Source: a virus. Taken from it: DNA of 47,539 nucleotides. Both the position numbers and the translations under genes were made by a program. Positions 28,392 through 43,703 of the stretch are shown here, piece after piece. Every line of letters begins with the position of its first letter. Positions within the stretch are counted from its first letter, which is position 1. A model generated the notes under the pieces. The model saw nothing but the letters and a program-made list of their open reading frames with translations, was not told the DNA's origin and ran no database searches. Location of the stretch: the IMG/VR virus record IMGVR_UViG_3300027779_002940, positions 1 through 47,539 of that record. One strand, 5' to 3'.

Positions 28392-29360
28392 ATGAAAATT
28401 CTATGGCCCGACATTCATGCGACCCTGACTAAGAGTATGGGGTCAGCCTTAAACAGCCTAGATTATGAGCTCCAAGTGCCATCTAACGAATACGAAATCA
28501 AGCACTTTCCTGAGCCTCCCGTTAACCAATTCGTATGGAACACGTCTTGGAGCCAGAACAAAATAGACGAAGAGTTCCCGACCAAAAATGTAAAAGCTGT
28601 AAGCAAAGAGGAGATACTCGACTGCCCTCCAGATGTAGTCTTCGTAACCGCGTTTGAGAATCAATTTGAAATTTTAGATGAGCTTTGGCCCATCCTAAAA
28701 CAGAAAGGTACAAAACTTGCTTATTATAGTGGGAATGATTATTGGCCAGAAGCTTACCCTTGGTATTCGCTTGAAAATTACCTATGTGCCGACCAATTAG
28801 CCTTTCGACTTTGCCGACACCATAACAAACATTTTCTTTACTATTGCCCGTGGATAGACTATGACCAGTTTTCGTTCACTGGTGTCAGTGATGGGAACAA
28901 ATTTGGCTCGTACATAGCTGAATACAAGGAGAATTTTCCAAAGGAATACGAGTTTGTTACTGGCTTGTCTAGTAAGTTTGATTTTATAGATTTAGAAATA
29001 CACTCTCATTCTACTAAAGAAGAAACCTCTGAATGCATGTCGAATAGTATAGCCACCCTACACGTTAAGCATTTAGAGGGATACGGGTTCGCGATTATAG
29101 AAAGCATGGCCAGAGGGCGACCAGTAATACTACACAAAAAATTTGCACAAGACAAAAGCTACGTACAGTGGGCTATAGAAAATGTCACCGCTCTGTATTT
29201 CGAGTCCGAAGATGAAATACACGCTAAAATGAAATCCATAATTGAATGCCAAGAATACAGGCATTGGCTTCAAACAGTCTGCTCTCAAGCGATAAGGTCC
29301 TTAGTTAACAATCAGGAGCAAACCAATAATTTAAAAAAGTTTTTAAACGAGTTAAAATGA
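28392..29360 (+). CDS. glycosyltransferase, GT-B fold
   Basis: This 322-residue protein opens 'MKILWPDIHATLTKSMGSAL' and has a C-terminal donor site 'SIATLHVKHLEGYGFAIIES', then 'MARGRPVILHKKFAQDKSYV', typical of GT4-like enzymes. The N-terminal domain is a loose Rossmann fold (PPDVVFVTAFENQFEILDEL). The donor is unknown. Its stop overlaps the ATG of the GT25 gene (ATGA at 29357), beginning a coupled run of sugar genes. Confidence 0.8.
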   Translation: MKILWPDIHATLTKSMGSALNSLDYELQVPSNEYEIKHFPEPPVNQFVWNTSWSQNKIDEEFPTKNVKAVSKEEILDCPPDVVFVTAFENQFEILDELWPILKQKGTKLAYYSGNDYWPEAYPWYSLENYLCADQLAFRLCRHHNKHFLYYCPWIDYDQFSFTGVSDGNKFGSYIAEYKENFPKEYEFVTGLSSKFDFIDLEIHSHSTKEETSECMSNSIATLHVKHLEGYGFAIIESMARGRPVILHKKFAQDKSYVQWAIENVTALYFESEDEIHAKMKSIIECQEYRHWLQTVCSQAIRSLVNNQEQTNNLKKFLNELK

Positions 29361-30112
29361 CTAACCCTTTTGACCATTTTGATATAATATTCTGCGTTAA
29401 CCTTGACTCTAGGCCCGAAAGGTGGGGCGAGAGCCTTGAGGAGTTTGAGAAGGTAGGAATAGCGAACAAGGTGAGAAGGTTTTCTGGGCACAAATATAAT
29501 ATTGACCATTGGATGAGGGGCAGGATGGGATGCTTTTCTTCATTTCGTGAATGCGTGAAGATAGCGAACGACGAGGGAGCGGAAAATGTGCTCGTTTTCG
29601 AAGACGATGTTAGGTTCGTAAACGATACAAATGAGGTTTTAAGTAAAAGCATAGAAGATTTAAAAAAGCGGGAGTGGGATATGTTCCACTTAGGGACTAA
29701 TCCTCAAGGGAAGGGCTCCTTGGAGCGAAGAACAGATAACCTGTTGAGACTAAAGTCAGGGCTTTGCTTACATGCGGCAGCTTATAATAAAAGATTTTTT
29801 GAAGAAGTTTTAGTCACAGTTCCCGAGGGGGCTAAGATATTAGAGTGGTTGCTTAGTGAGCATAATCGAACCGGACATGGGAGCATGGATGGCTGGGTAA
29901 TGACGCATGTGTGCCCTAACAGGGAGGTTTACTGCACTAACCCTATGATAGCGACACAGAGGCCAAGCTTTTCCGATATAGATAACAAAATGTCAAATTT
30001 TGGAGAAGACTTGCTGAAAGCTTTTAGCGAATTAGCCGAAGAACTAGAAAAGGAAATGATAGTCGCTGATGATGCTGGTGTTGATTTAAAAACTGGAAAA
30101 CTTACAGTATAA
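29357..30112 (+). CDS. glycosyltransferase family 25
   Basis: This 251-residue protein has the GT25 layout. 'IIFCVNLDSRPERWGESLEE' is the first strand-helix with a donor-binding Asp/Arg. 'RGRMGCFSSFRECVKIANDE' matches the 'GC..SH' block. 'ENVLVFEDDVRF' carries the ED(D) metal-binding motif. GT25 enzymes add Gal or Glc to LPS or proteins. The 'ERRTDNLLRLKSGLCLHAAA' segment is also characteristic. It is coupled to the upstream GT and lies five bases before the carbamoyltransferase. Confidence 0.85.
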   Translation: MTNPFDHFDIIFCVNLDSRPERWGESLEEFEKVGIANKVRRFSGHKYNIDHWMRGRMGCFSSFRECVKIANDEGAENVLVFEDDVRFVNDTNEVLSKSIEDLKKREWDMFHLGTNPQGKGSLERRTDNLLRLKSGLCLHAAAYNKRFFEEVLVTVPEGAKILEWLLSEHNRTGHGSMDGWVMTHVCPNREVYCTNPMIATQRPSFSDIDNKMSNFGEDLLKAFSELAEELEKEMIVADDAGVDLKTGKLTV

Positions 30113-30117
30113 ATAAA

Positions 30118-31698
30118 ATGAAAATATGTGGATTACATGCAGGGCACGATTGCTCGTTCGCTGTTCTAGACGAAGGAAGACCAGTCGTTCATCTCGAACT
30201 AGAAAGGTTCATACGTAAAAAGGAGCCCAAGGACGATGCTTACAAATTTTTCCAAGAAAAGTATGCGGATCACGAAAACATACACTACTACGCTCATACT
30301 TTAGACATATGGGAGCAGACTTACAAAAGCTCATACGACTCAATGATGTCCCACATCAAGGGCAAAGGGACATACCAGATACCGGGTCACCACGAATCTC
30401 ACGCAGCTAATGCCTTTTTCTCCAGTAACTTTGATCAAGCATTGATCATAACAATAGACGGAGGCGGAAGAGACTACGTTAACAAAAACCATGTAGTCAC
30501 CGCTTTTACTGCATGGGAAGGAATCGGCAACAAGATATATCCAATAGAAATATTAAAAGAGCAAGAAAGCAATATTGGCTACACTTGGAGGAATTTCACA
30601 GAGTGGTCTTTCGGATTGTCTACTGGGTATCCTAAAGGCTCTCAAATGGGGACCATAATGGCTATGGCCGCATTTGGTGATCCGGTATACGAAAATGAAA
30701 TGGAGTCCATGATTAGGAACTTCGAGCTTGGGTGTCAGCCCAATGAGAGGTTTGGATACTACAAGGCAATAGTGGAAAGAAGCGAGAAAGACAAATTCGA
30801 CGTTGCAGCATCTCTCCAATCGGCTACTGAAAAAGTAATAAGAGAAATGATTCAGGGGTACTTAGATAAAAATCCTGATCTCAGATACTTGTGCTTCTCT
30901 GGAGGAGTAGTTCTAAACTCTCTCATGATGGGCAAAATGTGGGATTGGTTCAAAGGGAGAATAGACGATATTTATGTCTGCCCTGTTCCTTATGATTCTG
31001 GACTGGCTATTGGTTCCGCACAATGGCTATGGCATCAACACCTAGATAATCCGAGAATTAAGTGGGAGGATAATTTTACTCCTTATCTCGGGGAGCCTTA
31101 TGATCAAGATCGAGTTCTGGACGCGATTTTAAAGTATACAGATAAAGTGAATTACGATTTCGTAAATGATATGGATGTCCTTGGTCTTTTAGCAGACCAA
31201 AAAATTATCTCTATTTTCGGAGGAGGCGCAGAGTCCGGCAGAAGAGCTTTGGGTAATAGAAGCATACTCGCTGACCCGAGAAGCCCAGACATGAAGGACT
31301 TGATTAACGATAAGGTTAAGCACAGGCAATGGTTTAGACCGTTCGCTCCGTCTATCCTAAGAGACAGAGTGGGGGATTACTTTAAGCATGATGTAGACAG
31401 CCCTTACATGACATATTGCCTAGAGTTCAAAGAGAGCGTCAGGGCTCAAGTCCCAGCGGTAGTACATAAAGATGGAACGGCCAGACTTCAAACGGTGTCG
31501 CAAAACGATAACTATAGATACCACCAGCTTCTGAAGAAATGGGATGAGCTTACTGGATGCCCCATATTTTTGAATACAAGCTTTAATGATACTGAGCCCA
31601 TAGTCGAGACTCCCGAGCACGGGATCAATTGCTTCTTGGGGACTAACATAGACAACTTGTTCTTTTTCGATCACAACATACTCCTATCTAAAAAATGA
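30118..31698 (+). CDS. carbamoyltransferase, NodU/TobZ family
   Basis: This 526-residue protein has the Kae1-like N-domain opening 'KICGLHAGHDCSFAVLDEGR' and 'GHHESHAANAF' (metal and carbamoyl-phosphate site, residues 90-100). 'TIDGGGRD' and 'CFSGGVVLNS' are nucleotide sites. The C-domain has 'GGGAESGRRALGNRSILADP', 'FRPFAPSI' and 'LNTSFND'. Such enzymes carbamoylate sugar hydroxyls (as in Nod factors or tobramycin). In this cluster the target is probably the phage-directed glycan. Its stop overlaps the ATG of the fucosyltransferase gene. Confidence 0.9.
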   Translation: MKICGLHAGHDCSFAVLDEGRPVVHLELERFIRKKEPKDDAYKFFQEKYADHENIHYYAHTLDIWEQTYKSSYDSMMSHIKGKGTYQIPGHHESHAANAFFSSNFDQALIITIDGGGRDYVNKNHVVTAFTAWEGIGNKIYPIEILKEQESNIGYTWRNFTEWSFGLSTGYPKGSQMGTIMAMAAFGDPVYENEMESMIRNFELGCQPNERFGYYKAIVERSEKDKFDVAASLQSATEKVIREMIQGYLDKNPDLRYLCFSGGVVLNSLMMGKMWDWFKGRIDDIYVCPVPYDSGLAIGSAQWLWHQHLDNPRIKWEDNFTPYLGEPYDQDRVLDAILKYTDKVNYDFVNDMDVLGLLADQKIISIFGGGAESGRRALGNRSILADPRSPDMKDLINDKVKHRQWFRPFAPSILRDRVGDYFKHDVDSPYMTYCLEFKESVRAQVPAVVHKDGTARLQTVSQNDNYRYHQLLKKWDELTGCPIFLNTSFNDTEPIVETPEHGINCFLGTNIDNLFFFDHNILLSKK

Positions 31699-32522
31699 TA
31701 ACTACAGAACTACAGGGAGGTTTAGGCAATCAATTATTTCAAATGTCTGCTGCTATCGGAGTCGCGCTAGACAACGATGATGTAGCAGGATTCGACATAA
31801 GCAAATTCGGACATACTGTACAGGGATTCAACCCTCGTAAATATGTAGATAATGTTTTCAGGAACACGATCTTCGACGAGGATATGCAGGTCGCGTTTAA
31901 CTGCACCGCAGATCCAAGTCGATTCGACTACGAAAAGATCCCGTACGTAGAGGCTATGAAATTGATTGGTTATTTCCAATCTTATAAATATTTCGATGAC
32001 CACAAAGACAAAATTATAGAAATGTTTTCCGCTACAGAAGAAGTCGAGCAGAAATTCAAAGAAGAAGTTTTGCAAAAAAGCGCAGCATTACATGACGAGA
32101 CACTTCGGCCTACTTGTTCCATTCATGTACGAAGAGGCTCGTATGTAAAGGACGCGTCTCATCACCCTCCCTGTAGTGCTGAATACTACGAAAAAGCAAT
32201 GGAGAGCATAGACTCTTCTCAGCAAGGGATGTCTTATCTGGTTTTTAGCGACGACAAACAGTGGTGTGAGGAAAACATTCTCCCCTTAGCGAATGGAGAT
32301 AGAAGTGTTGAGTTTCATAGCAGATATCAAGATTGGGAAGAAATGTGGTTTATGTCTTTGTGCGACAATAACATCATAGCTAATAGTTCATTTAGCTGGT
32401 GGTCCGCTTACTTAAACAAGAACGATACGAAACAAGTCGTTTATCCTTCTATATGGTTTGGCCCCGCATATGCGTATTTCGACACTAAAGATCTATGCCC
32501 AGAGAAGTGGAAATCGATTTGA
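31695..32522 (+). CDS. alpha-1,2-fucosyltransferase, GT11
   Basis: This 275-residue protein has 'LQGGLGNQLFQMSAAIGVAL' at the N-terminus, 'CSIHVRRGSYVKDAS' (residues 141-155; the GT11 HxRRxD/G motif) and 'IIANSSFSWWSAYLN' near the end. GT11 transfers fucose from GDP-L-fucose in alpha-1,2 linkage, or related deoxysugars. It pairs with the GT10 enzyme that follows. A GDP-fucose-like donor could come from the GMD and SDR genes here. The start overlaps the carbamoyltransferase stop. Confidence 0.9.
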   Translation: MITTELQGGLGNQLFQMSAAIGVALDNDDVAGFDISKFGHTVQGFNPRKYVDNVFRNTIFDEDMQVAFNCTADPSRFDYEKIPYVEAMKLIGYFQSYKYFDDHKDKIIEMFSATEEVEQKFKEEVLQKSAALHDETLRPTCSIHVRRGSYVKDASHHPPCSAEYYEKAMESIDSSQQGMSYLVFSDDKQWCEENILPLANGDRSVEFHSRYQDWEEMWFMSLCDNNIIANSSFSWWSAYLNKNDTKQVVYPSIWFGPAYAYFDTKDLCPEKWKSI

Positions 32523-33397
32523 CAAAAAAATCTAGCATTAACTTGTTTGACAAACAGGCTTCCCACACACCGGAGAGACTTGGGTATTACTCCTTTTCTC
32601 ATAACAGAAGGCCGAAATACTTCGATTACCTCCCAAATGGGGATGACCCCGAAAACGTAGCATTGTTTACGAGCGGTTTTTTCGATGCGGATTACGTGGA
32701 AACCATAAAGGCTAAGTTAAAAATCGCTTGGATAGTGGAAACCAGATGCGTTGATTTTTGGGCTTACTCTAAAATACTAGAAACAGAGAGGGTGTTTGAT
32801 TACATATTCACATTCGACGAGATCCTTCTCTCAAGAAGCGACAAGTACATCAAAAACTTGATCGCTAGTTCCAGAGTTCTGGATGAAGACTGTGGAGTTA
32901 AGGAAAAAAGCAAAAATATATCCATGATCGACAGTGGCAAGAGGTTTTGCTCTGGTCATATTTTCAGAGGCGAAGTCTACGATAAAGTGGTTAGGGACAA
33001 GCCAGTGGATATGTGGGGACGTACTCATAAGCCCTTCGCTTTAGACGAACTGCACAAGGAAAAGGAGGAGCCCTTAGGCGATTACAGGTTCTCAGTGACC
33101 ATAGAGAATGAATCTGCAACTAATTATTTTACCGAGAAAATCATAGACTGCTTCATGTACGGGACTGTTCCGATTTATTGGGGATGCCCTAACATTCTAG
33201 ATTTTTTCAACACAAAAGGGATAGTCACATTTAGTACGCTAGATGAGCTCGATGCTTTGTTAGATAACATGACCCCAGAATACTATAATTCAATACTCGA
33301 TGCCGTTCGGGATAATCATGAAAGGTGCAAGGAATATTTATCCATGGACGATACATTAGCTAAAAACTTAGACCTTACTTTAAATCGTAAGAAGTGA
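32495..33397 (+). CDS. fucosyltransferase, GT10 family
   Basis: This 300-residue protein has the GT10 C-terminal donor block: 'YRFSVTIENESATNYFTEKI', then 'IDCFMYGTVPIYWGCPNI'. This is the alpha-1,3/4-fucosyltransferase signature with the conserved Glu, Tyr and Lys. The N-terminal half includes 'KIAWIVETRCVDFW' and an acceptor-type domain. It overlaps the GT11 gene by 28 bases. A TTG at 32519 is an alternative start that would almost remove this overlap. Confidence 0.85.
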   Translation: MPREVEIDLTKKSSINLFDKQASHTPERLGYYSFSHNRRPKYFDYLPNGDDPENVALFTSGFFDADYVETIKAKLKIAWIVETRCVDFWAYSKILETERVFDYIFTFDEILLSRSDKYIKNLIASSRVLDEDCGVKEKSKNISMIDSGKRFCSGHIFRGEVYDKVVRDKPVDMWGRTHKPFALDELHKEKEEPLGDYRFSVTIENESATNYFTEKIIDCFMYGTVPIYWGCPNILDFFNTKGIVTFSTLDELDALLDNMTPEYYNSILDAVRDNHERCKEYLSMDDTLAKNLDLTLNRKK

Positions 33398-33400
33398 ATA

Positions 33401-33817
33401 ATGAACAGGAAATACTTACCCACATTCGCTGAGTTAGTTGATAGGATGACAATTTGTCAACTGAAAGCTATTTTTATCCCCGAGAATAAGGAGCCTTACG
33501 ACCAAGAGATAAGTGACATTAAGCACGATCTTAACGAAATAATTAAAGAGAAGGATATAAAGTTAACGGGCGAATTGCTAAGGGCAACCACGCTGGTAAT
33601 GTTGACGAATAGATACATTTGGGAAAACGAAAGCAAATGTAGAAACGGAGACGCCCAAAGTCTAGAGCTTCTTAAACTAACTCATTCTATCAACGGAGTA
33701 AGGAACACTGCTAAAAATGTCATCTCTAAGGAGTTAGGGGAAAGAGTAGACTTAAAGACTGATTGCTTAGCTGCCGAATTAAAATCCGATTTTCAAAATT
33801 GGGATATTTTCGAATGA
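33401..33817 (+). CDS. conserved protein of phage/LPS sugar clusters, unknown function
   Basis: This 138-residue helical protein has 'LPTFAELVDRMTICQLKAIF' at the start and 'NRYIWENESKCRNGDAQ' later. I associate this type with LPS-cluster genes in marine phages, possibly related to DUF4254. I cannot assign a function. It sits between fucosyltransferase and heptose kinase genes and overlaps the next ATG (ATGA at 33814). Confidence 0.6.
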   Translation: MNRKYLPTFAELVDRMTICQLKAIFIPENKEPYDQEISDIKHDLNEIIKEKDIKLTGELLRATTLVMLTNRYIWENESKCRNGDAQSLELLKLTHSINGVRNTAKNVISKELGERVDLKTDCLAAELKSDFQNWDIFE

Positions 33818-34551
33818 GAGTTTTAGTTGTAGGAGATATTTGCGAAGACGTATTCCACTATGTCAAGTGTGATCGACTTTGCCCAGAGGCTCCAGTCCCC
33901 GTGGTAGTAGTAAAGAATACTAAAGAAAGCTACGGCATGGCTGGAAATGTCTCTCGAAACCTAGAGTCTTTAGGATGCAGTGTTGATCTTATATCGAATC
34001 AAGAAAGAATACGAAAAGTAAGATATGTAGATGACAACACTAACCAAATGTTCATAAGGGTAGACGACGATAAAGATGTCCAAAGAATACGAGGTATAGA
34101 AGATGTGAACTTTAAAGACTATGCGTGTGTCGTAATATCCGATTACGATAAGGGGTTCCTAAGTGAGGAAGACATAAAGAAGATAAGTGAAAAACATCAT
34201 GTTACTTTTTTGGATTCTAAAAAATACATTGGATCTTGGTGTGAGAATATAACTTATATCAAAATAAACTCCTTTGAGTACGAGAGGACACTTCACACGA
34301 TTAAGGGCATGGACAGTATTTTAAATAAGATGATTATCACGGCAGGATCTAATGGCTGCACGTACAAAGATAAGGTATACCCAGTTTCAAAGGTAGATGT
34401 AAAAGATCTCAGTGGTGCTGGTGATAGTTTTTTGGCTGGTTTGGTTAAAAAATACATAACGACAAGGAATATCAAAGACTCGATAGAGTTCGCTAATCAT
34501 TGCGCTACGCAGGTAGTTCAGCAAAGGGGCGTCTCAACAATAACACGATAA
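33814..34551 (+). CDS. rfaE1: PfkB-family sugar kinase, RfaE1/HldE N-terminal type
   Basis: This 245-residue kinase has the HldE kinase opening: 'VLVVGDICEDVFHYVKCDRL', then 'CPEAPVPVV' and 'SYGMAGNVSRNLESLGCSVD'. The C-terminal PfkB site 'DLSGAGDSFLAGLV' has the catalytic Asp at 204. HldE kinase phosphorylates D-glycero-manno-heptose-7-phosphate. Canonical domains are about 310-320 residues, so this one is short. The matching nucleotidyltransferase is at 13525-14034. Neither a GmhA-type isomerase nor a GmhB phosphatase is in the window, so the host may provide them. Confidence 0.85.
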   Translation: MRVLVVGDICEDVFHYVKCDRLCPEAPVPVVVVKNTKESYGMAGNVSRNLESLGCSVDLISNQERIRKVRYVDDNTNQMFIRVDDDKDVQRIRGIEDVNFKDYACVVISDYDKGFLSEEDIKKISEKHHVTFLDSKKYIGSWCENITYIKINSFEYERTLHTIKGMDSILNKMIITAGSNGCTYKDKVYPVSKVDVKDLSGAGDSFLAGLVKKYITTRNIKDSIEFANHCATQVVQQRGVSTITR

Positions 34552-35558
34552 TGAAAAGAGTATTAGTAACTGGAGCCACAGGGTTTGTGGGTAGCCACAT
34601 GATAGACTTCCTTTTAGAGAAGGAACCCGAATGTCGAATCTACGCCACTAAAAGGTGGAGGAGCAGAACCGACAACATAAAGCATTTGATTGATAACCCG
34701 AGAGTCGAGTTTTTAGAGTTTGACCTTACCGATAGATCTTCGATTGCAACGGCACTTACTAAATCTTATCCCGATACTATATATCATTTCGCAGCGCAAA
34801 GCTTTCCGGGTACATCTTTTAATACGCCTATTCAAACGCTAACAACCAATGTTCTAGGGACGAGCAACTTGTTCGAGGAAATAAGACTTTTAAAAGCATA
34901 CGATTCTGACTGCGATTTCGATCCTATAGTAGTAAGCATCTCTTCAAGCGAAGTGTATGGGAACCCGAACGAAGACGAAGTTCCCATAAAAGAAACCAAC
35001 CCAATTAGGGCCGCTAACCCATATTCGATAAGTAAGGTTGGTCACGACTTGATGTCTCAGTATTATCACACAGCTTACGGGATAAGAGTTGTCATAACTC
35101 GTATGTTCAGTCACGAAGGGAAACGAAGGGGCAAAGAGTTTGCGTTATCTTCTTTTGCTCATCAAATAGTCCAGCATGAGAAGTCCCCGAACTTCCCTAA
35201 TGAAGGACCTTACGAGATAAAGGTAGGCAACTTGAATTCCACCAGAACTTATAATCATATTGAAGACGCGGTAAACGCATACTATTTAGCCGCCACAAAA
35301 GCCACTTCCGGCGAAGTTTACAACATCGGCGGTGATGAGACCTGCTTGGTCGGGGAAGCGTTAGAGATGCTGTTAGAGCAGTCCAAGGCCCCAAGAGATA
35401 AGTGGACCATAGTGGTTGACAAAGAAAGGTTGAGACCCACGGATATTACGCTTCAAATACCCGACAGCACAAAGTTCAGAGAAGAAACAGGGTGGACTTT
35501 AACGAGGACGCTCAAGGATATATGTGAAGACCTATTGGATTACTGGAGAAATGTCTAA
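34551..35558 (+). CDS. GDP-mannose 4,6-dehydratase-like SDR
   Basis: From the ATG at 34551 the 335-residue protein has the NAD(P) site 'VTGATGFVGSHMIDFLLEKE', 'SISSSEVYGNPNEDEVPIKE' and the catalytic 'ANPYSISKVGHD' (Y-x-x-x-K). 'HEGKRRGKEFALSSF' is the GMD-type RRG signature. It likely makes GDP-4-keto-6-deoxymannose or acts on a related sugar such as GDP-heptose. Lying next to the heptose kinase, the latter is possible. A second GMD-like gene lies at 42597. Confidence 0.85.
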   Translation: MKRVLVTGATGFVGSHMIDFLLEKEPECRIYATKRWRSRTDNIKHLIDNPRVEFLEFDLTDRSSIATALTKSYPDTIYHFAAQSFPGTSFNTPIQTLTTNVLGTSNLFEEIRLLKAYDSDCDFDPIVVSISSSEVYGNPNEDEVPIKETNPIRAANPYSISKVGHDLMSQYYHTAYGIRVVITRMFSHEGKRRGKEFALSSFAHQIVQHEKSPNFPNEGPYEIKVGNLNSTRTYNHIEDAVNAYYLAATKATSGEVYNIGGDETCLVGEALEMLLEQSKAPRDKWTIVVDKERLRPTDITLQIPDSTKFREETGWTLTRTLKDICEDLLDYWRNV

Positions 35559-36555
35559 CAAAATACTTATCATTTACAATACTTGCGCTTTATATGAGAA
35601 GGAAGCGAAAGTGGACTCTTGGATAGATCAGATAAAAGCTATCCTATCTCAAAATTCTATTTCAAGCTGCAAAGTAGTCCACTCCGATTGCGGGACTCAC
35701 ACAAGACATAGGTCTAAAATTAAAGAGTATTTTGGGTCTGATTTATCTTATTATCACACTGCGGAAGCTTTACCTATACAAACGACCTGTAATCATGCAG
35801 CAAAAAAAATGGTGAATGAGTTTGGGAATTTTGAAACTTATTTGTATTTAGGTGCAGGAGTCAAATTTACGCACAATGCCCAACTAGAAATAGCTCATGA
35901 GACATTGACGACTTCAAGGAGATTATCGAAATTAGATTTCCACGTTATTAGACCTCCTGAGTTGCCCCCTGCGGAAGAGATGCACCCCCCTTTTGATTTC
36001 TACGACAACATGGACAGGGGAAGCGATCACTTTTATGCCTTAAAGCCCGGACAAAGAGTCAATAATCATACTGCGATGTTTACTCATTCTCATTTTGAAA
36101 GTTACGGCGACAGGCTGCTCCCCGATGCGTACAACGGAAACGGAGCAGAGTCTATATATCCGTTTTTAGCTTCAGCACTTGGCAAACAACATGGAATACT
36201 AAGTTTTAAATACGCAGGTAGCCTATTCCATATACCAGACCATGACGGAGCTAATCAGTTTTTACCATTAACGAGCGGAGAAAACAGACTCAGCTACTTC
36301 TACAATTGGGCATTTAGAAACGAACGTAATCATTTCGACGAGCTAAACGAAAAGGGAGCGGAGTACGGCATACAAACGGATGTGCCAGAGAAAGAATATT
36401 GCCAGAGGCAAATGCCTATCAAGGCGTTTACTGAAGATGGGCTTCCTAAATCCGAAGAACAAAGGAAGAAAATCTACGAGCTCCTTTGCGAGTACGCTTT
36501 TCTCGATATAAATAAACTTAATTACGACGAAATCGAACACACTTTTGAGCCATGA
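35551..36555 (+). CDS. hypothetical protein of sugar cluster
   Basis: From the ATG at 35551 (MSNKILIIYNTCALYEKEAK) this 334-residue protein has an alpha/beta N-terminal half with 'SSCKVVHSDCGTHTRHRSKI' and 'YLYLGAGVKFTHNAQLEIAH'. A Tyr/His-rich C-terminal half follows. It might be a glycosyltransferase-like (GT-A) protein, but I see no clear DxD or other catalytic motif. It is tightly coupled between the GMD-like and RmlC-like genes. Confidence 0.6.
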   Translation: MSNKILIIYNTCALYEKEAKVDSWIDQIKAILSQNSISSCKVVHSDCGTHTRHRSKIKEYFGSDLSYYHTAEALPIQTTCNHAAKKMVNEFGNFETYLYLGAGVKFTHNAQLEIAHETLTTSRRLSKLDFHVIRPPELPPAEEMHPPFDFYDNMDRGSDHFYALKPGQRVNNHTAMFTHSHFESYGDRLLPDAYNGNGAESIYPFLASALGKQHGILSFKYAGSLFHIPDHDGANQFLPLTSGENRLSYFYNWAFRNERNHFDELNEKGAEYGIQTDVPEKEYCQRQMPIKAFTEDGLPKSEEQRKKIYELLCEYAFLDINKLNYDEIEHTFEP

Positions 36556-37070
36556 TTTTTGACAATGAAATTAAAACGTTCCGCCCTGACATTCATAAGG
36601 ACTACAGGGGAGATTTATGGACCACACACAAACGAGACTCCTTTAAGCCAGAGCTTGACTTTAAGCATGACAAATATTCTACTTCTGGCAAGGGAGTATT
36701 GAGGGGTCTGCATGGAGACTTCGAAACCTACAAGTTAGTGTCTTGCTTGTCTGGAAGCATGTACTTTGTAGTCGTAGATAATAGAGAAGATTCCGTTACC
36801 TACTTAGCTTGGGATTCTTTGATACTAGATGACAAGGAGAGGAAACAAGTGCTTATACCACCGGGTTTTGCTAATGGCTTTTATGTTTTGGAGGGACCAG
36901 CCCTGTTTAGTTATAAGCTTAGTTACCCTACGGACTATGTTGATGCAGACAAGCAATTCACCTTGAAATGGGACGATCCTAATCTGGGAATAGATTGGCC
37001 AGATAATAACCCAATTTTGTCAGAAAGAGATAAATCATGTCAGAACTTACATCTAAAGCCAATAGCTTAA
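36552..37070 (+). CDS. dTDP-4-dehydrorhamnose 3,5-epimerase-like (RmlC family)
   Basis: This 172-residue cupin protein has the RmlC order: 'DYRGDLWTTHKRDSF', 'KGVLRGLHGDFETYKLVSCL' (with the catalytic His), 'YFVVVDNREDSVTY', 'PPGFANGFYVLEGPALFSYK' and 'WDDPNLGIDWPDNNPILSER'. RmlC-type enzymes epimerise C3 and/or C5 of 4-keto-6-deoxy nucleotide sugars. Here it may act on a GDP-4-keto sugar. It overlaps both neighbours. Confidence 0.85.
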   Translation: MIFDNEIKTFRPDIHKDYRGDLWTTHKRDSFKPELDFKHDKYSTSGKGVLRGLHGDFETYKLVSCLSGSMYFVVVDNREDSVTYLAWDSLILDDKERKQVLIPPGFANGFYVLEGPALFSYKLSYPTDYVDADKQFTLKWDDPNLGIDWPDNNPILSERDKSCQNLHLKPIA

Positions 37071-37711
37071 AAGGAATCAGGTGCTCTCTACCGGAGGTAA
37101 GTGAGCCCAAAATGAGCCCACAGGAGCTCGTCGCTTTCGAAAGAGACATAGCTACTACTTTCGATGACGCTAAAATAAGAGCCCCAGTTCATCTTTATAG
37201 CAATAACGAAGAGAAGATGGTGGAGGTATTCAAGAGGATATCTGATAAAGACTGGGTTCTATGCACTTGGAGAAGTCACTACCAATGCTTATTGAAGGGT
37301 GTTGATCCCAAACTCTTAAAGGAAGAGATAATGAAAGGTAAATCAATTGCACTTAACTTTAAGGAACAAAAAGTTTTGTCTTCCGCGATTGTAACTGGAG
37401 TCCTTCCTATATCGGTAGGGTTGGGGAAAGCTATCAAAATGAGAGGCTCCGATGAAAAAGTATTCTGTTTTGTAGGTGACATGACAAGCATGACGGGTTC
37501 TTTTTTGGAGTGCTTTAATTACTGCAAGAATCACAACCTTCCTGTTTATTGGGTCATAGAAGATAATAACAAATCCGTATGCACGGATACCCGAAAAACT
37601 TGGAACACAGACTTACTTGAAATGGAGAAAAATTCAGATGAGCATATAATCTATTATTACTACAGTAGCATGTATCCCCATGCTGGTGCGGGTAAAAGGG
37701 TTCAATTCTAA
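37037..37711 (+). CDS. TPP-dependent enzyme, E1-alpha-like subunit
   Basis: This 224-residue protein has the E1-alpha layout: 'VLCTWRSHYQCLLKGVDPKL', 'GKSIALNFKEQKVLSSAIVT', 'LPISVGLGKAIKMRG', 'VFCFVGDMTSMTGSFLECFN' and 'VYWVIEDNNKSVCTDTRKTW'. The 'GDM...DNN' pair is the TPP-Mg motif. It ends naturally at 'YPHAGAGKRVQF'. Pyruvate dehydrogenase-type alpha subunits are about 320-370 residues, so this is a minimal form. With the beta partner it could transfer an acyl or ketol unit to a keto-sugar, as proposed for avilamycin AviB1/B2-type proteins. That role is inferred. Confidence 0.8.
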   Translation: MSELTSKANSLKGIRCSLPEVSEPKMSPQELVAFERDIATTFDDAKIRAPVHLYSNNEEKMVEVFKRISDKDWVLCTWRSHYQCLLKGVDPKLLKEEIMKGKSIALNFKEQKVLSSAIVTGVLPISVGLGKAIKMRGSDEKVFCFVGDMTSMTGSFLECFNYCKNHNLPVYWVIEDNNKSVCTDTRKTWNTDLLEMEKNSDEHIIYYYYSSMYPHAGAGKRVQF

Positions 37712-38247
37712 TGAAGTACTCAGATGAACTAAAGAGATCGATGGAGCTCCTTGCTCAAAACGACAAGGTAGTCTTTCTCGGACAAGCAGTAGCAGACAAG
37801 GGAACAGCTATGTCGAATAGCTTAGCGGATATATCCGATGAAAGAAAAATCGAGTGGACCGTCACAGAGGACATGCAAATGGGAGCGAGTATCGGAATGG
37901 CACTCGAAGGGTTAATCCCCGTCTCTCTTTACCCAAGGTGGAATTTCCTTTGCCTAGCTACGAATCAGATCGTAAATCACTTGGATAAGCTTCCTGCAAT
38001 GTCAGACGGCCAATATTCTCCTAGAGTTATAATCCGAACTAGTATCGGAGCTCAAAGGCCACTTCATCCGCAACATCAACACGTTGATGATTTTACCGAA
38101 GCATATAGGCTTATGTGCCCCAACGTGAATATAGTAAGACTAGACGAACCAGAGGAAATTTACCCAGCCTATGAAAAGGCACTAACCAGAGAAGACAGCA
38201 AAAGCACTATTCTTGTAGAATGGGGCGACTACCACGGAGAAAAATGA
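37711..38247 (+). CDS. TPP-dependent enzyme, E1-beta-like subunit, short form
   Basis: This 178-residue protein corresponds to the pyrimidine domain of E1-beta/transketolase-type enzymes. 'IEWTVTEDMQMGASIGMALE' contains the conserved Glu that activates TPP, and 'GLIPVSLYPRWNFLCLATNQ' and 'SIGAQRPLHPQHQHVDDFTE' follow. The C-terminal transketolase domain (about 130 residues) present in canonical E1-beta is absent. Its start overlaps the E1-alpha stop (TAATG) and its end overlaps the ColD-like gene. Confidence 0.8.
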   Translation: MKYSDELKRSMELLAQNDKVVFLGQAVADKGTAMSNSLADISDERKIEWTVTEDMQMGASIGMALEGLIPVSLYPRWNFLCLATNQIVNHLDKLPAMSDGQYSPRVIIRTSIGAQRPLHPQHQHVDDFTEAYRLMCPNVNIVRLDEPEEIYPAYEKALTREDSKSTILVEWGDYHGEK

Positions 38248-39458
38248 GTTTCAATTGGCCATTAATAAATGACAATTTTTCTGAAGTAGACAGAGAGGAA
38301 GTTATCTCTTGGCTCAGAAAAAATCCTAGGCTTACCCAAGGCCCCAAAGTGGCCGAATTCGAAGAAGTTTGGAGTAAGTGGCAAGGAGTGAAGCATTCTG
38401 TTTTCGTTAACTCTGGGGCCAGTGCTAACTTCATAATGTTCTCCATAGTCAATGAGCTTATAGGGAGAAATCACTTTTTAAAAACAGGCAGACAGGCAGA
38501 AGTAATTACCTCTCCCTTGGGTTGGGTGTCAGACGTAAGCCCTGTGGTTATGATGGGGATGAAGCCAGTTTTCGTTGACGTAAATCTGCAAAATATGTCG
38601 ATGAACACTGAAAAAATAATAGAAGCGGTGACAGAAGACACGGTGGCTATAAATTTGGTTCATGTTCTTGGGTTTAACGCTGTTGACTCGGGTCTAGTTC
38701 AGTATTGCGACGAGAAAGGCATCCTGCTCATAGAGGACTGCTGCGAATCGCATGGGGCAACTTACCTTGATAACAAAATAGGGACTTACGGAGATATGTC
38801 TAATTTCTCTTTTTACTTTGGTCATCATATGACGACTATTGAGGGAGGCATGGTTTGCACTAACGATGACGAACTGTACGAATACATGAAACTATTTAGA
38901 TCTCACGGCATGACAAGAGAGACCTCCCCGAAGTTTAGGGAGCGTTACGAGAAAGAATACCCCGAGCTTAACCCCTTATTTACTTTTGCTGTCCCCGCAA
39001 TAAATATGAGGAATACGGAATTTAATGCTGTGGTGGGGTTGTCTCAAATTAAAAGACTGGACACAAACATAAGTTTAAGGCAGCACAATCTAAATGTTTG
39101 GCTAGACAACTTAGATCCTAAAATCTTTTATACGAACTTCGACTCTAAAGGGAGCAGCAACTTTTCTCTGCCTTTAATAGTCAGGCCCGATATGACAGAA
39201 GAGGACAAAGAAGGCTTGATGGGTGAGGTTTGTGAAGTGCTAGAAGAAGAAAAAATAGAGTACAGGGTGGGCACTGCTGGTGGAGGCAATCAGACATTAC
39301 AGCCCTATCTAAAGTCAGGAAAATACGAATACAGAATACACGACCATTTAGATAATACTAATCATATACATGATTATGGACTGTACATAGGCAATCACAC
39401 AGAGCTAACAGAACAACAAGTGATTAATCTATGTGACCAGTTAGCATCTACACCTTAG
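38244..39458 (+). CDS. DegT-fold PLP enzyme with His at the Lys position (ColD/E1-like 3-dehydratase)
   Basis: From the ATG at 38244 (404 residues) it has the DegT/DnrJ fold: 'VNSGASANFIMFSIVNELIG', 'VITSPLGWVSDVSPVVMMGM' and 'IEDCCESHGATYLDNKIGTY'. At the usual PLP lysine it reads 'FYFGHHMTTIEGGMV', so H194 replaces Lys. The same swap occurs in ColD (GDP-4-keto-6-deoxymannose 3-dehydratase) and in E1 (CDP-sugar 3-dehydrase), which remove the C3 hydroxyl instead of transaminating. With the GMD genes this predicts GDP-4-keto-3,6-dideoxymannose as product. Confidence 0.85.
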   Translation: MSFNWPLINDNFSEVDREEVISWLRKNPRLTQGPKVAEFEEVWSKWQGVKHSVFVNSGASANFIMFSIVNELIGRNHFLKTGRQAEVITSPLGWVSDVSPVVMMGMKPVFVDVNLQNMSMNTEKIIEAVTEDTVAINLVHVLGFNAVDSGLVQYCDEKGILLIEDCCESHGATYLDNKIGTYGDMSNFSFYFGHHMTTIEGGMVCTNDDELYEYMKLFRSHGMTRETSPKFRERYEKEYPELNPLFTFAVPAINMRNTEFNAVVGLSQIKRLDTNISLRQHNLNVWLDNLDPKIFYTNFDSKGSSNFSLPLIVRPDMTEEDKEGLMGEVCEVLEEEKIEYRVGTAGGGNQTLQPYLKSGKYEYRIHDHLDNTNHIHDYGLYIGNHTELTEQQVINLCDQLASTP

Positions 39459-39472
39459 AAATTAAATATACT

Positions 39473-40438
39473 ATGTTTGAAAATAAAAAAATTCTTGTTA
39501 CAGGCGGTTCTGGGATGATTGGCAGAGAGCTCGTAACGATGCTTCTAGATAGGGGAGCAGAAATAACAGTCGCATCTCTGGATAGCCCAAGAGATATGGA
39601 CGAAAGGGTAAATTTCAAACCAGCGAACTTAACTTTAAAGCATAACTGTGAAATTATGGTAAAGGGTATGGATATGGTATTCCATCTAGCTGGGATTAAG
39701 GGGTCACCTTTAATGTGCCAGAAAAAACCAGCATCCTTCAGCGTCCCAATGCAGCAATTCAACTTAAACATGATGGAGGCTGCTGTGAACGAAGATGTTG
39801 AATGGTATTTGTATACGAGTTCTGTTGGGGTATACAAACCAGCAGAGGTTTTTTACGAAGATGATGTTTGGAAAACTTTCCCATCGGAAAATGATAGATT
39901 CGCAGGGTGGGCTAAGAGAATGGGGGAACTACAAGCTCAAGCTTATTCGATAGAGAATGACTGGAACAGAGTATCCATAGTTAGACCCGCCAACGTATAC
40001 GGAAATTATGATAACTTCGATCCTGAGACGGCAATGGTTATCCCGTCTTTGATATGCAAAGCTAGTTCATCACCTGTGCTAGACGTATGGGGTGATGGAT
40101 CGCCAATTAGGGATTTCATTCACGCCAGAGATGTCGCTAGAGGCATGATGCATATGGTAGAAAACAAAGTGATCGTCCCTGTCAATTTAGGATCAGGAAA
40201 GGGCGTTACGATTAAAGAGATCGCAGAAAGCGTTGCTAAATCTTTTGGCTCTGAAAGAGAGATAAATTGGCAAGTTGACAAACCTACTGGTGACGCAAAA
40301 AGACTTCTCTCTATGGAGAGAGCGAACAGCCTAGGATTTTATCCTGAGATTAGTCTAGAAGATGGCATTTCAGAGACGGTAGACTGGTTCCTGAATAATC
40401 CATCCTTAGTCGGAAACAGACATAATGCATTTAAATAA
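39473..40438 (+). CDS. NAD(P)-dependent SDR epimerase/reductase
   Basis: This 321-residue protein has the extended-SDR site 'VTGGSGMIGRELVTMLLDRG', 'SSVGVYKPAEVF' and 'WGDGSPIRDFIHARDVARGM'. It resembles GDP-fucose synthase/ColC-type reductases. At the catalytic YxxxK the sequence is 'FAGWAKRMGE': with K148 as the lysine, the residue four before is Ala144, not Tyr. It may have shifted its catalytic residue or altered its chemistry. It starts 14 bases after the ColD-like gene. Confidence 0.75.
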   Translation: MFENKKILVTGGSGMIGRELVTMLLDRGAEITVASLDSPRDMDERVNFKPANLTLKHNCEIMVKGMDMVFHLAGIKGSPLMCQKKPASFSVPMQQFNLNMMEAAVNEDVEWYLYTSSVGVYKPAEVFYEDDVWKTFPSENDRFAGWAKRMGELQAQAYSIENDWNRVSIVRPANVYGNYDNFDPETAMVIPSLICKASSSPVLDVWGDGSPIRDFIHARDVARGMMHMVENKVIVPVNLGSGKGVTIKEIAESVAKSFGSEREINWQVDKPTGDAKRLLSMERANSLGFYPEISLEDGISETVDWFLNNPSLVGNRHNAFK

Positions 40439-41147
40439 AACACTTGTAACAGGAATAAGCAGCGGACTTGGCAAATACATACACGAAAACACCAAGGACT
40501 CCATCGGTGTTAACAGGGATAACTCTGAAAAAATAGTCCGAGATCATAAGGACGATTTCTTTGAGACGATTATCCATTGTGCCTTCAACTCTTCAAGCGA
40601 TGTTTCTGATTACAAATCTTACGTAGAAGACAACGTTTTCTTTACCGCTAAACTGGCGGACATAAAGTGCCGAAAATTTATTTACATAAGTTCCGTTAAT
40701 GTATACAGCGAAGAAGATAATTACTATAGCCTATCGAAAAGAATAGGCGAATACATAGTGAAGTCAAGGCAACCAGACAGCCATCTAATTATTAGATGTT
40801 CTGCAATTTTAGGGCCCACGATAAGACCAAATAGCTTAGTCAAGATACTGAAACATAAAGCTCCGAAGCTTACTCTTTCAGGCGACTCCACGTTCAACTA
40901 TGTGCTTCAAAAAGATATATTAAAATTTATAAAACATAGCGATGAAGCGTCTTTGTTCGGCACATTGGACTTTACTTCCGAATCAGATGTAGACCTAAAA
41001 TACGTAGCCGAAAAATACAATAAGGAAACAATATTCGGAGAATATAAATACGAGACCCCGAGAAGCAATACAGTAAAGGTTTATCAAGTTAGTCGGCAGT
41101 TCAAGAAAAGCAGCAAGGATATCATAGAGGAGTACATAAATGACTAA
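40425..41147 (+). CDS. SDR family protein
   Basis: This 240-residue protein has a glycine motif 'TLVTGISSGLGKYIHE' and 'KFIYISSVNVYSEEDNYYSL', with a good YxxxK (YSLSKR). It is shorter than typical epimerases (about 300) and may be a reductase for a keto-sugar. It overlaps both neighbours by 8-14 bases and is probably part of the same pathway as the ColD-like enzyme. Confidence 0.75.
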   Translation: MHLNKTLVTGISSGLGKYIHENTKDSIGVNRDNSEKIVRDHKDDFFETIIHCAFNSSSDVSDYKSYVEDNVFFTAKLADIKCRKFIYISSVNVYSEEDNYYSLSKRIGEYIVKSRQPDSHLIIRCSAILGPTIRPNSLVKILKHKAPKLTLSGDSTFNYVLQKDILKFIKHSDEASLFGTLDFTSESDVDLKYVAEKYNKETIFGEYKYETPRSNTVKVYQVSRQFKKSSKDIIEEYIND

Positions 41148-42600
41148 AAAAATATTGATTTGTGGCGCGTCAGGATTCATAGGTAGAAACCTGACAGAGT
41201 ATTATCTTAATAAAAAAAATGAGTACGAAGTAAGAGTAGTAGAGCATGAAACGCCTATAGATTTTGTAGGCGACTTAGCCGAGATTGTAAAAGGCGATCT
41301 TAGGGATCAATCTTTCGTAAAAAAAGCATTGAAAGATGTGGATATAATATTGCAATTCGCAGCAACTACCTCTGGCTCGAAAGTAATTATAAATACCCCG
41401 CATGTTCATGTGACGGACAACGCGGTTATGAATTCTCTGATTCTAAGAGAAGCATACGAACAATCAATTGATCATGTGATATTTCCCAGTTGCACGGTTA
41501 TGTATCAGCCTAGTGAAACCGCAGTTAAGGAGACCGACTTCAATGGTAACCAAAGAATTTATGACAGATACTTCGGGGTAGGTAATACTAAAGTCTATAT
41601 AGAAAAAATGTGCGAGTTCTATTCTGGGTTACTCAAGAAAACAGGATTAGGCAGAACTAAGCATACAGTTATAAGGCACTCTAATATATATGGGCCGCAT
41701 GATAAATTCGATATTGAAAACGGACATGTGTGCGGTGCTACGATTTGGAAAGCATTTCATCAGGATAAAATTGTTGTCTGGGGAGACGGGAAAGAGAAGA
41801 GAGACCTTCTTTACATTAGTGACTTGGTAGACTTCGTCGATAAGGCGATAGAAAATCAAGTGACGCCTTTCGGCCTGTATAATGTCGGGTTAGGCGAAGC
41901 GACGAGCGTAAGCGAACTCGTCGAAACGATAATGGCTTTAGCTACATGCGGTCCACCGACAAAGCATATTGAGTACGACACATCTAAGCCTACGATTCCG
42001 ACTAGTCTGTTCCTCGATTGCACAAAGGCGAAAGAAGAGCTTTGCTGGGAACCAACGACCTCTCTTGAGAGTGGACTTATGAAAACGATAGATTGGTACA
42101 GGGAAAGCTCGAATGAGAATAAGGTCAAATACTTCGGGAGAAGGGGAGCAGGGACTTTTATAGTTTGCAGGAATACCAAAAGAGTTTTAATGGCCAAAAG
42201 GTCTGATAAAGTAAATATGCCTCTAACTTGGGCTTCGATTGGGGGAGGAATAGAAGGCGAGGAGCTTAACAATGAAGAAGAAATTGATATCGATTCAGCT
42301 AAGAAATGCGCTTGGATGGAGATAGTAGAGGAGACGGGCCATGAAGGGGAATTAGATTTAAACCTACTCGGGTTGATAAGGTACAACAATGGAATGAAAT
42401 GGGAGAAAGGGTTCGAGAATTTTACCACTTACATGTTTATTGGGTTTGTGGAAGAGGAATTCGAGCCCCAAAAGAACTGGGAGACAGAAGAATTTAGATG
42501 GGTTGACTATAAAGATATAGAATCATTAGGAGAGATGCATCCATGCACTAGAAGAGCGTTAAAAGAAACAGCATTTGTAGAAATTGTAAAAAGCTTATGA
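41140..42600 (+). CDS. fusion of SDR nucleotide-sugar enzyme and Nudix hydrolase
   Basis: Residues about 1-325 form an extended SDR ('ICGASGFIGRNLTEYYLNKK', 'FPSCTVMYQPSETAVKETDF', 'VVWGDGKEKRDLLYISDLVD'). Residues about 330-486 form a Nudix domain with 'MPLTWASIGGGIEGEE', then 'CAWMEIVEETGHEGE'. The Nudix box has an insert between its first Gly-Glu part and its Glu-rich helix, and Met where the Arg of RE..EE is usual. It resembles GDP-mannose mannosyl hydrolase domains found in fucose and colanic-acid clusters. The fusion could couple sugar conversion to nucleotide-sugar hydrolysis. It overlaps both neighbours. Confidence 0.8.
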   Translation: MTKKILICGASGFIGRNLTEYYLNKKNEYEVRVVEHETPIDFVGDLAEIVKGDLRDQSFVKKALKDVDIILQFAATTSGSKVIINTPHVHVTDNAVMNSLILREAYEQSIDHVIFPSCTVMYQPSETAVKETDFNGNQRIYDRYFGVGNTKVYIEKMCEFYSGLLKKTGLGRTKHTVIRHSNIYGPHDKFDIENGHVCGATIWKAFHQDKIVVWGDGKEKRDLLYISDLVDFVDKAIENQVTPFGLYNVGLGEATSVSELVETIMALATCGPPTKHIEYDTSKPTIPTSLFLDCTKAKEELCWEPTTSLESGLMKTIDWYRESSNENKVKYFGRRGAGTFIVCRNTKRVLMAKRSDKVNMPLTWASIGGGIEGEELNNEEEIDIDSAKKCAWMEIVEETGHEGELDLNLLGLIRYNNGMKWEKGFENFTTYMFIGFVEEEFEPQKNWETEEFRWVDYKDIESLGEMHPCTRRALKETAFVEIVKSL

Positions 42601-43703
42601 AAAAAATTTTAATAACAGGTATCCTTGGGCAAGACGGATCAAACATGGCCGAATATCTCTTGTCTCTCGATGAAGAGCTAGAGGTCTATGGTAGTATGCG
42701 AAGGATTTCTAATCCCAACTATTCGAACATAGAATCATTTAGGGATCACCCGAGGTTCCATCTGAAATACATGGACTTATCCGATGATGTAAGCGTAAAC
42801 AATTGCTTCAACAAAATACTCCCTGACTGCATGATAAATTTCGGGGCTAATTCGTTTGTAGGGGTTAGCTGGGACATGCCAACGCTTATGTTTAATGTTA
42901 ACACATTGGGCGTTGTGAGATGTTTAGAGGCAATTAAAAATTATAAACCAGAGTGTAGATTTTACAGTGCTGGGTCTAGCGAGGAATTTGGAGATGTCCA
43001 GTATACGCCTCAAGACTTAGAGCACCCACCTAAGCCCAGAAGCCCTTACGGGGCCTCTAAAGTAGCAGCACGAGCCGTAGTGAAGGTTTACAGAGAGTCT
43101 TATGACCTTTACGCTGTACACGCTACGCTGTTCAATCACGAAGGAACACGAAGGGGAGAAGAATTTGTTACTAGAAAAATTACTATGGGAGCAGCAAAAG
43201 CTTATTGCGATTCCATCAAGGATGAATCAAATATTACCTCTATATATTTAGGAAATGTAGACGCGAAAAGAGATTGGAGTGATAGCGAAGATTTCGTAAA
43301 AGCTATTTGGCTAATGCTTCAGAAAGACAGCCCTCAAGACTATTTGTTAGCTAGTGGGGAAGCTCATACGGTTAGGGAATTCGTAGAACTGGCCTACGGA
43401 GAAGCTGGATTCCACGACACGTCTTGGAGAGGAAGCGGAGTAGAAGAGTCGTTTGGGTTTGAAACCGAAACCGGAAAATGGATACCGCTAGTTCAAATTT
43501 CTGAAGATTTCTATAGACCCGCCGAAGTGAATATCTTGTTAGGCGATTCTAGCAAAACAAGGCTTGACCTGAATTGGCAACCAAAGGTAAGCTTCGCTGA
43601 GTTGGTGACCAAAATGGTCAAGTGGGACATTGAAAAAGCCAAGGAAAAAGAAAACATCAGTACATGGCCAGTGTCTTTTCCTGATAAAGAAACTGTGCGC
43701 TAA
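42597..43703 (+). CDS. gmd: GDP-mannose 4,6-dehydratase
   Basis: This 368-residue protein is a typical GMD. It has 'ITGILGQDGSNMAEYLLSLD' at the NADP site, 'INFGANSFVGVSWDMP', 'YSAGSSEEFGDVQYTPQD', 'SPYGASKVAARAVVK' (catalytic Y-x-x-x-K) and 'FNHEGTRRGEEFVTRKITMG'. It converts GDP-D-mannose to GDP-4-keto-6-deoxy-D-mannose, the branch point to fucose, rhamnose, perosamine or colitose. The start overlaps the Nudix fusion's stop (ATGA at 42597). It is the last sugar gene before the recombination genes. Confidence 0.92.
   Translation: MKKILITGILGQDGSNMAEYLLSLDEELEVYGSMRRISNPNYSNIESFRDHPRFHLKYMDLSDDVSVNNCFNKILPDCMINFGANSFVGVSWDMPTLMFNVNTLGVVRCLEAIKNYKPECRFYSAGSSEEFGDVQYTPQDLEHPPKPRSPYGASKVAARAVVKVYRESYDLYAVHATLFNHEGTRRGEEFVTRKITMGAAKAYCDSIKDESNITSIYLGNVDAKRDWSDSEDFVKAIWLMLQKDSPQDYLLASGEAHTVREFVELAYGEAGFHDTSWRGSGVEESFGFETETGKWIPLVQISEDFYRPAEVNILLGDSSKTRLDLNWQPKVSFAELVTKMVKWDIEKAKEKENISTWPVSFPDKETVR

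Follow-up and report, generated by a model that had tools for sequence, protein, structure and literature searches.

What sugar is made by the gene cluster at positions 28392–43703 of IMG/VR virus record IMGVR_UViG_3300027779_002940, and do its genes form one pathway? The record is linear and 47.5 kb, thus a fragment, and we analyzed all of its 47,539 bases (the window). The cluster holds 17 open reading frames (ORFs), all intact and all on the plus strand. Their junctions span −34 to +14 bases and overlap at 13/16, in the majority of cases by 4 bases (ATGA) or 1 base (TAATG), with five overlaps of the ATGA type (4 bases or more) and two of the TAATG type, so the tight packing reported in an initial annotation is borne out. 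Pfam and NCBIfam searches also agree with its gene list, namely GT1/GT4-type and GT25 glycosyltransferases, N- and C-terminal carbamoyltransferase domains, GT11, GT10, PfkB, two GDP_Man_Dehyd proteins, RmlC, E1_dh, Transket_pyr, DegT, and short-chain dehydrogenases/reductases (SDRs) (Table 1). We consider it probable that the core of the cluster is a nucleotide-heptose pathway in which a thiamine diphosphate (ThDP)-dependent protein pair, TPPa and TPPb, attaches an acyl branch to C4 of a GDP-4-keto(-3,6-dideoxy)heptose.

Homology of the core enzymes points to a heptose substrate. Both GDP_Man_Dehyd proteins had been listed as resembling GDP-mannose 4,6-dehydratase (GMD), but they differ in type. 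Against the Protein Data Bank (PDB), GMD1 scored 228 bits to 7us5, a GDP-D-glycero-D-manno-heptose 4,6-dehydratase, and 100 bits to GMD 1db3 (394 versus 183 for 7us5 and GMD with a six-member GMD1 family profile). Conversely, GMD2 scored 278 bits to GDP-mannose dehydratases and 78 bits to 7us5, and it alone is a true GMD. The RmlC-like protein matches GDP-4-keto-heptose epimerases of Campylobacter (7m14, 8db5, and others) at 147–155 bits versus 97 bits for dTDP-RmlC. The best PDB match of the DegT protein is ColD (179 bits, compared with 137 bits for the Fe-S enzyme RfbH/E1). In the alignment, its His202 (counted in the 412-aa ORF, which probably starts at 38244) lies opposite the catalytic His188 of ColD, the residue that we take to be altered in 3b8x and 2r0t, the N and K mutants. 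The His-for-Lys replacement originally noted is therefore real, and all DegT-family genes recognized near ThDP pairs carry His and none Lys. In Campylobacter jejuni HS:5, a 4,6-dehydratase, a pyridoxal phosphate (PLP)-dependent C3-dehydratase, an RmlC-type C5 epimerase, and a C4-reductase convert GDP-manno-heptose to GDP-3,6-dideoxyheptose in vitro, and the C3-dehydratase is 62–67% identical to ColD-type enzymes (PMC10440746). Because GMD1, the RmlC-like and ColD-like enzymes, and SDR1 match this route (SDR1 by a general resemblance to GDP-fucose synthase), the core probably starts from a heptose and not from GDP-mannose. The same homologies support a ColD-type C3 dehydratase as the enzyme that would yield a 3-deoxy-4-keto nucleotide sugar.

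The core recurs across many viral contigs. We scanned IMG/VR viral contigs and genomes by homology and numbered the resulting loci with the prefix L. Megablast of the whole region against phages gave no match, a single-sequence TPPa scan of viral contigs found nothing, and a single-sequence ColD scan found two loci only. A TPPa alignment scan of viral contigs returned 268 relatives, of which 80 were kept, and one genome scan with TPPa returned 13 bacterial or archaeal loci. From a ColD-like family scan we kept the best 80 loci, a sample that leans to close kin and forms 41 clusters at 85% identity. Among these clusters, 32 have a GMD1-type gene, 31 SDR1, 30 the conserved partner gene hyp6, 28 each RmlC, TPPa, and TPPb, and 25 PfkB. 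The recurrent core (hyp6, PfkB, GMD1, RmlC, TPPa, TPPb, ColD-like, SDR1, and SDR2/SDRnud) is often accompanied by a heptose-1-phosphate nucleotidyltransferase (NTase). For example, L191, L194, L195, and L212 share the order GT10-hyp6-RmlC-TPPa-TPPb-ColD-SDR1-SDR2-SDRnud-GMD1-PfkB-NTase-small HAD-like protein, which is near-identical in L183, L211, and L143. Upstream of this block, L195 further carries the carbamoyltransferase and GT11. The NTase homologues that directly follow PfkB in L183, L191, L194, L195, L211, and L212 are RfaE-II-like, and the small HAD-like protein, which has weak HAD-phosphatase matches, could fill the GmhB role. Recurrence of the same genes in the same order in many unrelated contigs is far above chance.

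The same comparison bears on the GDP-mannose start proposed initially, in which GMD and ColD would act as in the colitose route and the ThDP pair would branch the hexose GDP-4-keto-3,6-dideoxymannose. GMD2 is indeed of the true GMD type, the DegT enzyme has ColD as its nearest relative in the PDB, a GMD2-type gene lies close to the TPP and ColD genes of L006–L011, and some phages (L005, L252) carry a colitose-like GMD2-SDR-ColD set. However, GMD1 and the RmlC-like protein are heptose-type, the core travels with heptose-kinase and heptose-1-phosphate nucleotidyltransferase genes, and GMD2 lies outside it, the hexose GMD occurring in just 1/41 ColD clusters. Moreover, L006–L011 also contain Cj1427-like and HddA-like genes, while L005 and L252 have no ThDP pair in the fetched range. 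We therefore regard a hexose start as unlikely. L005 (cyanophage ACG-2014f) and L252, with a true GMD, an SDR, and a His-type ColD, are candidate phage colitose-type pathways in their own right.

The ThDP pair combines conserved predicted catalytic residues with a minimal frame. TPPa is an E1_dh protein and TPPb consists of Transket_pyr alone, with the transketolase C-terminal domain absent by Pfam, in keeping with the minimal E1-alpha/beta pair first described. TPPa has 224 aa and TPPb 178 aa, and homologues are mostly similar in size. Residues on which ThDP chemistry should depend are conserved: Glu53 and His124 of TPPb in 149/149 homologues and, across 202 TPPa homologues, His52, Gly147, and Glu175 without exception, Asn177 in 201, and Asp148 in 194. 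An AlphaFold model of TPPa (confidence score pLDDT 86) has pyruvate dehydrogenase E1-alpha as its closest fold (E 1e-10), and transketolase function was set aside, since sequence and predicted fold indicate a pyruvate dehydrogenase-type E1. The pair does not appear to be a full pyruvate dehydrogenase E1. E1 of pyruvate dehydrogenase complexes binds E2 through the beta C-terminal domain that TPPb lacks, and no E2/E3 or acyl-carrier partner was recognized among the window proteins searched. Loss of this domain would suit acyl handover to a soluble ketone. The ThDP pair appears to belong to the same pathway as the ColD-like enzyme, most plausibly as a branching carboligase.

Which ketone would accept the acyl group is suggested by the company that TPPa keeps. 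We grouped TPPa proteins by the internal residue of the ThDP motif (GDM versus GDG/GDA). A GMD1 or Cj1427-like gene is present in 14/16 GDM-type TPPa clusters versus 0/18 clusters of other alphas (P = 9e-8 Fisher’s exact test, which assumes independence among clusters that are not entirely independent), and the two genes never occur together in GDM-type clusters. The Cj1427-like protein of L013 matches PDB 6vo6, presumably Cj1427 itself, at 362 bits. Cj1427 is a GDP-heptose 4-dehydrogenase that turns 2-oxoglutarate into L-2-hydroxyglutarate (PMC10680097). Two distinct sources of GDP-4-keto-heptose beside the same ThDP pair argue for a 4-keto-heptose as the acceptor, and this is our main argument. 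The window itself offers a second line of evidence. Its GMD1, RmlC, ColD-like, SDR1, SDR2, SDRnud, GT10, GT11, and carbamoyltransferase proteins are nearest to the marine operon group, whereas TPPa, TPPb, and hyp6 are nearest to the group with Cj1427-like genes (TPPa also by tree). Despite this other lineage, the ThDP pair keeps the marine-operon slot in the RmlC-ColD interval. Such in-place exchange suggests an equivalent function in both lineages.

These patterns also weigh on two readings without a branched heptose. In one, the product is a plain 3,6-dideoxyheptose as in Campylobacter, and the ThDP pair acts elsewhere, for example by making an acyl group or aldehyde that goes into a different decoration, or does no more than loosely share the locus. 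Four Campylobacter-type enzymes are enough for GDP-3,6-dideoxyheptose (PMC10440746), SDR1 could be the C4-reductase, and several ColD-GMD1 loci have no TPPa. Yet the TPPa-TPPb pair occupies the RmlC-ColD interval in colinear operons and the HddA-ColD interval in bacteria, and it also follows Cj1427-like genes in ColD-less cassettes. The window contains no recognized E2/E3 or acyl-carrier partner for the pair, and its pair was swapped in situ; we find this reading rather doubtful. In the other, a hypervariable phage island has by chance brought together pathways that are independent of each other (GMD2 for fucose, an ADP-heptose remnant, and an unrelated ThDP and PLP pair). Phage glycan islands are mosaic, the GT4, GT25, and GMD2 genes are not kept in related cassettes, and TPPa, TPPb, and hyp6 differ in phylogenetic affinity from the remaining genes. 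Already weakened by a core that recurs in the same order in many contigs and in bacteria, and by its strong association with GDP-heptose first-step enzymes, a chance assembly is very improbable. The conserved operons thus uphold the initial view of one linked pathway over a set split among unrelated ones.

Returning to a C4-branched heptose, we infer its reactions, their order, donor, nucleotide, product, and destination from gene content, homology, catalytic residues, and conserved linkage. PfkB would phosphorylate a heptose-phosphate that the RfaE-II-like protein activates to NDP-D-glycero-D-manno-heptose. GMD1 would then form the 6-deoxy-4-keto-heptose, the ColD-like enzyme strip the C3 hydroxyl, and the RmlC-like enzyme epimerize C5 (and/or C3). 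The TPPa/TPPb heterodimer would decarboxylate a 2-oxo acid, most likely pyruvate, although donors besides pyruvate are known among sugar-branching enzymes, and transfer its acyl carbanion onto the ketone at C4; the product would be a 4-C-acyl-3,6-dideoxyheptose. One of the SDRs would reduce the new side-chain ketone, and SDR1 could serve either in this step or in C4 reduction. Finally, glycosyltransferases and the carbamoyltransferase would build the sugar into a glycan of the surface or the virion. Fucose-type sugars from GMD2 would be part of the same glycan, as GMD2, GT10, and GT11 indicate. We recognized neither a flippase nor a polymerase in the window.

Several observations weigh against this pathway. 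On the supply side, the nearest relative of PfkB is heptose-7-phosphate kinase (TIGR02198), but the score lies far below the curated cut-off, and GmhA was not found. HddA and HddC are likewise absent from the window, which has PfkB and RfaE-II-like genes instead. Because these two resemble ADP-heptose (HldE) enzymes, the nucleotide could be ADP, while the downstream enzymes suggest GDP. At the branching step, TPPa is present in 46/69 ColD-anchored loci of at least 12 kb, some loci without it (L203, L217, L223) hold other genes in its slot, and ColD-like genes are missing from one phage class that has the ThDP pair. Since some GMD1-ColD loci thus lack the pair and some ThDP loci lack ColD, the ThDP step is optional. 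A search for a ColD gene hidden elsewhere in the L013–L031 loci gave one hit across 18 records, and that was weak (55 bits, E 3e-16). In addition, E1-like branching enzymes such as the everninomicin pair were still biochemically unproven in 2023 and called hypothetical (PMC10338323).

The cassette is not confined to phages but is also present on Verrucomicrobiae chromosomes. TPPa of the window kind is present in 15/384 Verrucomicrobiae genomes searched, while among 385 Alphaproteobacteria only the already found SAR116 genome was positive. Most Verrucomicrobiae loci read HddA-TPPa-TPPb-ColD-B12 radical SAM, and several add LhgO, Cj1427-like, and HddC genes. In L086, L279, and L280, the operon LhgO-Cj1427-HddC-HddA-TPPa-TPPb-ColD-B12 radical SAM adjoins flagellin genes and perhaps serves flagellin glycosylation; LhgO would oxidize and recycle the L-2-hydroxyglutarate from Cj1427. 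The cobalamin-binding radical SAM protein (HpnJ/BchE/AprD4-like; L086 12361–13926) is a neighbour of the ThDP pair in the majority of bacterial versions and in many of the phage ones, but the window lacks it. The initial annotation had the phage make a branched 3,6-dideoxy sugar: the ColD-type C3 step stands, and branching remains the most plausible role of the ThDP pair, but the GDP-mannose start is not supported, and the system is not exclusive to phages.

Beyond the core, the window contains further genes of interest (Table 1). The initial gene list did not include the NUDIX fusion of the third SDR (41140–42600); the NUDIX domain is C-terminal, and the L195 counterpart is an SDR of 948 bases without it. 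The hyp6 family has 535 relatives among viral contigs (L102–L181 included), is predicted to form a helical bundle, has invariant charged residues, and is a frequent partner of such sugar cassettes. Near the RfaE-II-like gene, a PMM-like HAD protein (12292–13002, minus strand) and a UDP-glucose/GDP-mannose dehydrogenase that lacks the C-terminal domain (16182–17069, minus strand) mark a second sugar-nucleotide operon of the phage. An FtsZ/tubulin-family GTPase of 425 aa (45578–46852, plus strand; PF00091, E 1e-15; phrog_17961) adjoins a divergent UvsX-like recombinase and is a possible phage cytoskeletal protein.

Table 1. Genes of the cluster and the separate nucleotidyltransferase gene, by position in the window
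Feature	Position	Strand	Evidence
Glycosyltransferase (Glycos_transf_1)	28392..29360	+	Pfam PF00534, E 3.8e-7; no counterpart in related cassettes
GT25-type glycosyltransferase	29357..30112	+	Pfam PF01755
NodU/CmcH-type O-carbamoyltransferase (CarbT)	30118..31698	+	Pfam PF16861 and PF02543; L195 orthologue, 581 bits
GT11 glycosyltransferase, fucosyltransferase-like	31695..32522	+	Pfam PF01531; L195 match, 176 bits
GT10 glycosyltransferase, fucosyltransferase-like	32495..33397	+	Pfam PF00852; adjoins hyp6 in L183, L191, L194, L195, L211, L212
hyp6, conserved partner, predicted four-helix bundle	33401..33817	+	49-56% identity to relatives; model pLDDT 82; no significant match in fold search
PfkB, heptose-kinase-like	33814..34551	+	TIGR02198 top match, below cut-off
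GMD1, predicted GDP-heptose 4,6-dehydratase	34551..35558	+	Best PDB 7us5; family profile
hyp9, possibly glycosyltransferase	35551..36555	+	No match in Pfam/PHROG; homologues in L006-L011 and L103 cassettes
RmlC-like, predicted GDP-4-keto-heptose C3/C5 epimerase	36552..37070	+	Best PDB 7m14, 8db5, and others
TPPa, minimal E1-alpha-like ThDP subunit, GDM motif	37037..37711 (true start may be 37112)	+	PF00676
TPPb, minimal E1-beta-like, PYR domain only, predicted catalytic Glu53 and His124	37711..38247	+	PF02779 only
ColD-like PLP C3-dehydratase (predicted), His replacing PLP lysine	38244..39458	+	Best PDB ColD, E 1e-51
SDR1, GDP-fucose-synthase-like reductase, core; putative C4- or side-chain ketoreductase	39473..40438	+	Best PDB GDP-L-fucose synthase
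SDR2, short SDR-like	40425..41147	+	PF01370 weak; same slot in marine operons, <=192 bits
SDRnud, SDR reductase/epimerase and NUDIX fusion	41140..42600	+	PF01370 and PF00293; SDR part kept in operons
GMD2, GDP-mannose 4,6-dehydratase type, probably for GDP-fucose, non-core	42597..43703	+	Best PDB GDP-mannose dehydratases
RfaE domain-II-like heptose-1-phosphate nucleotidyltransferase (NTase), separate operon	13528..14034	-	TIGR02199, 163 bits (cut-off 181.5); PF01467

We give even chances to a broader proposal, that a widespread new family of minimal ThDP carboligases, marked by the GDM signature and the missing transketolase C-terminal domain, makes C4-branched heptoses from GDP-4-keto-heptoses supplied by a 4,6-dehydratase or a Cj1427-type dehydrogenase, for virion glycosylation or host remodelling in phages and perhaps for flagellin in Verrucomicrobiae. 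Once confirmed, it would add a new sugar pathway common to phages and bacteria; our search of open-access papers brought up no route to a branched heptose. The cassette would also offer a concrete function for a common unnamed phage gene block (phrog_34187 kin, hyp6) and tie it to a bacterial operon near flagellin genes. Because the conserved cassette supplies a defined acceptor and a compact enzyme pair, the chemistry is directly testable, and GDP-heptose substrates have already been made for the Campylobacter enzymes.

Related systems share parts of this design. The fused "transketolase central region" protein of cyanophages S-SM2 and P-TIM68 (phrog_34187) is a homologous alpha-beta ThDP protein in a phage glycan island with a PfkB kinase. 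Unlike the window pair, it is fused, has a GDG motif, adjoins a Zn-alcohol dehydrogenase, and is not tied to GDP-heptose dehydratase or dehydrogenase genes. L002, L003, L058, and their kin form this second ThDP clade, often fused, with the GDG motif, Zn-alcohol dehydrogenase, and PfkB kinase. In L002, a gene annotated as phosphoheptose isomerase (GmhA; 19980–20291, SSM2_207 of S-SM2) had no SIS domain and gave a weak HAD-phosphatase match instead; its relative in L195 weakly matches the capsule phosphatase EcbF/BcbF, so SSM2_207 is possibly misannotated.

Among two-carbon branching systems, the pairs AviB1/AviB2 of avilamycin, Pau11/Pau12 (Plm8/Plm9) of paulomycin, and EvdU5/EvdS3 of everninomicin are, like the window pair, E1-alpha/E1-beta-like, and they are tied to a C4 two-carbon branch. 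In paulomycin this branching depends genetically on the pair, as seen by pau11 knockout and complementation, and substrate flexibility has been reported for Plm8/Plm9. However, Pau11/Pau12 have 325 and 345 aa, compared with the 224 and 178 aa of the window pair, which is not full-length, and these systems have a GDG motif and dTDP-hexose or pentose substrates where the window has GDM and a heptose context. Yersiniose A also resembles our proposal in placing the branch on a nucleotide-linked 4-keto-3,6-dideoxy sugar, but there a CDP-hexose is branched by YerE alone, an acetolactate-synthase-type flavoprotein, whereas the window has an E1-type pair and not the three-domain TPP_enzyme architecture.

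The GDP-colitose pathway (GMD, ColD, ColC) contributes the closest solved relative of the window's His-type PLP 3-dehydratase; in the window, however, the dehydratase is heptose-type, an RmlC-like epimerase is present, and ColD is not coupled to a true GMD. With C. jejuni HS:5/HS:11 (PMC10440746, PMC10680097) the window shares, by homology, a heptose 4,6-dehydratase, a ColD-type C3-dehydratase, and an RmlC-type epimerase; SDR1, with its general likeness to GDP-fucose synthase, could reduce either C4 or a side chain. The Campylobacter enzymes are distant in sequence, and the ThDP pair, SDR2, SDRnud, and hyp6 are not described there. For heptose supply, Campylobacter uses HddA and HddC, whereas the window has PfkB and the RfaE-II-like protein.

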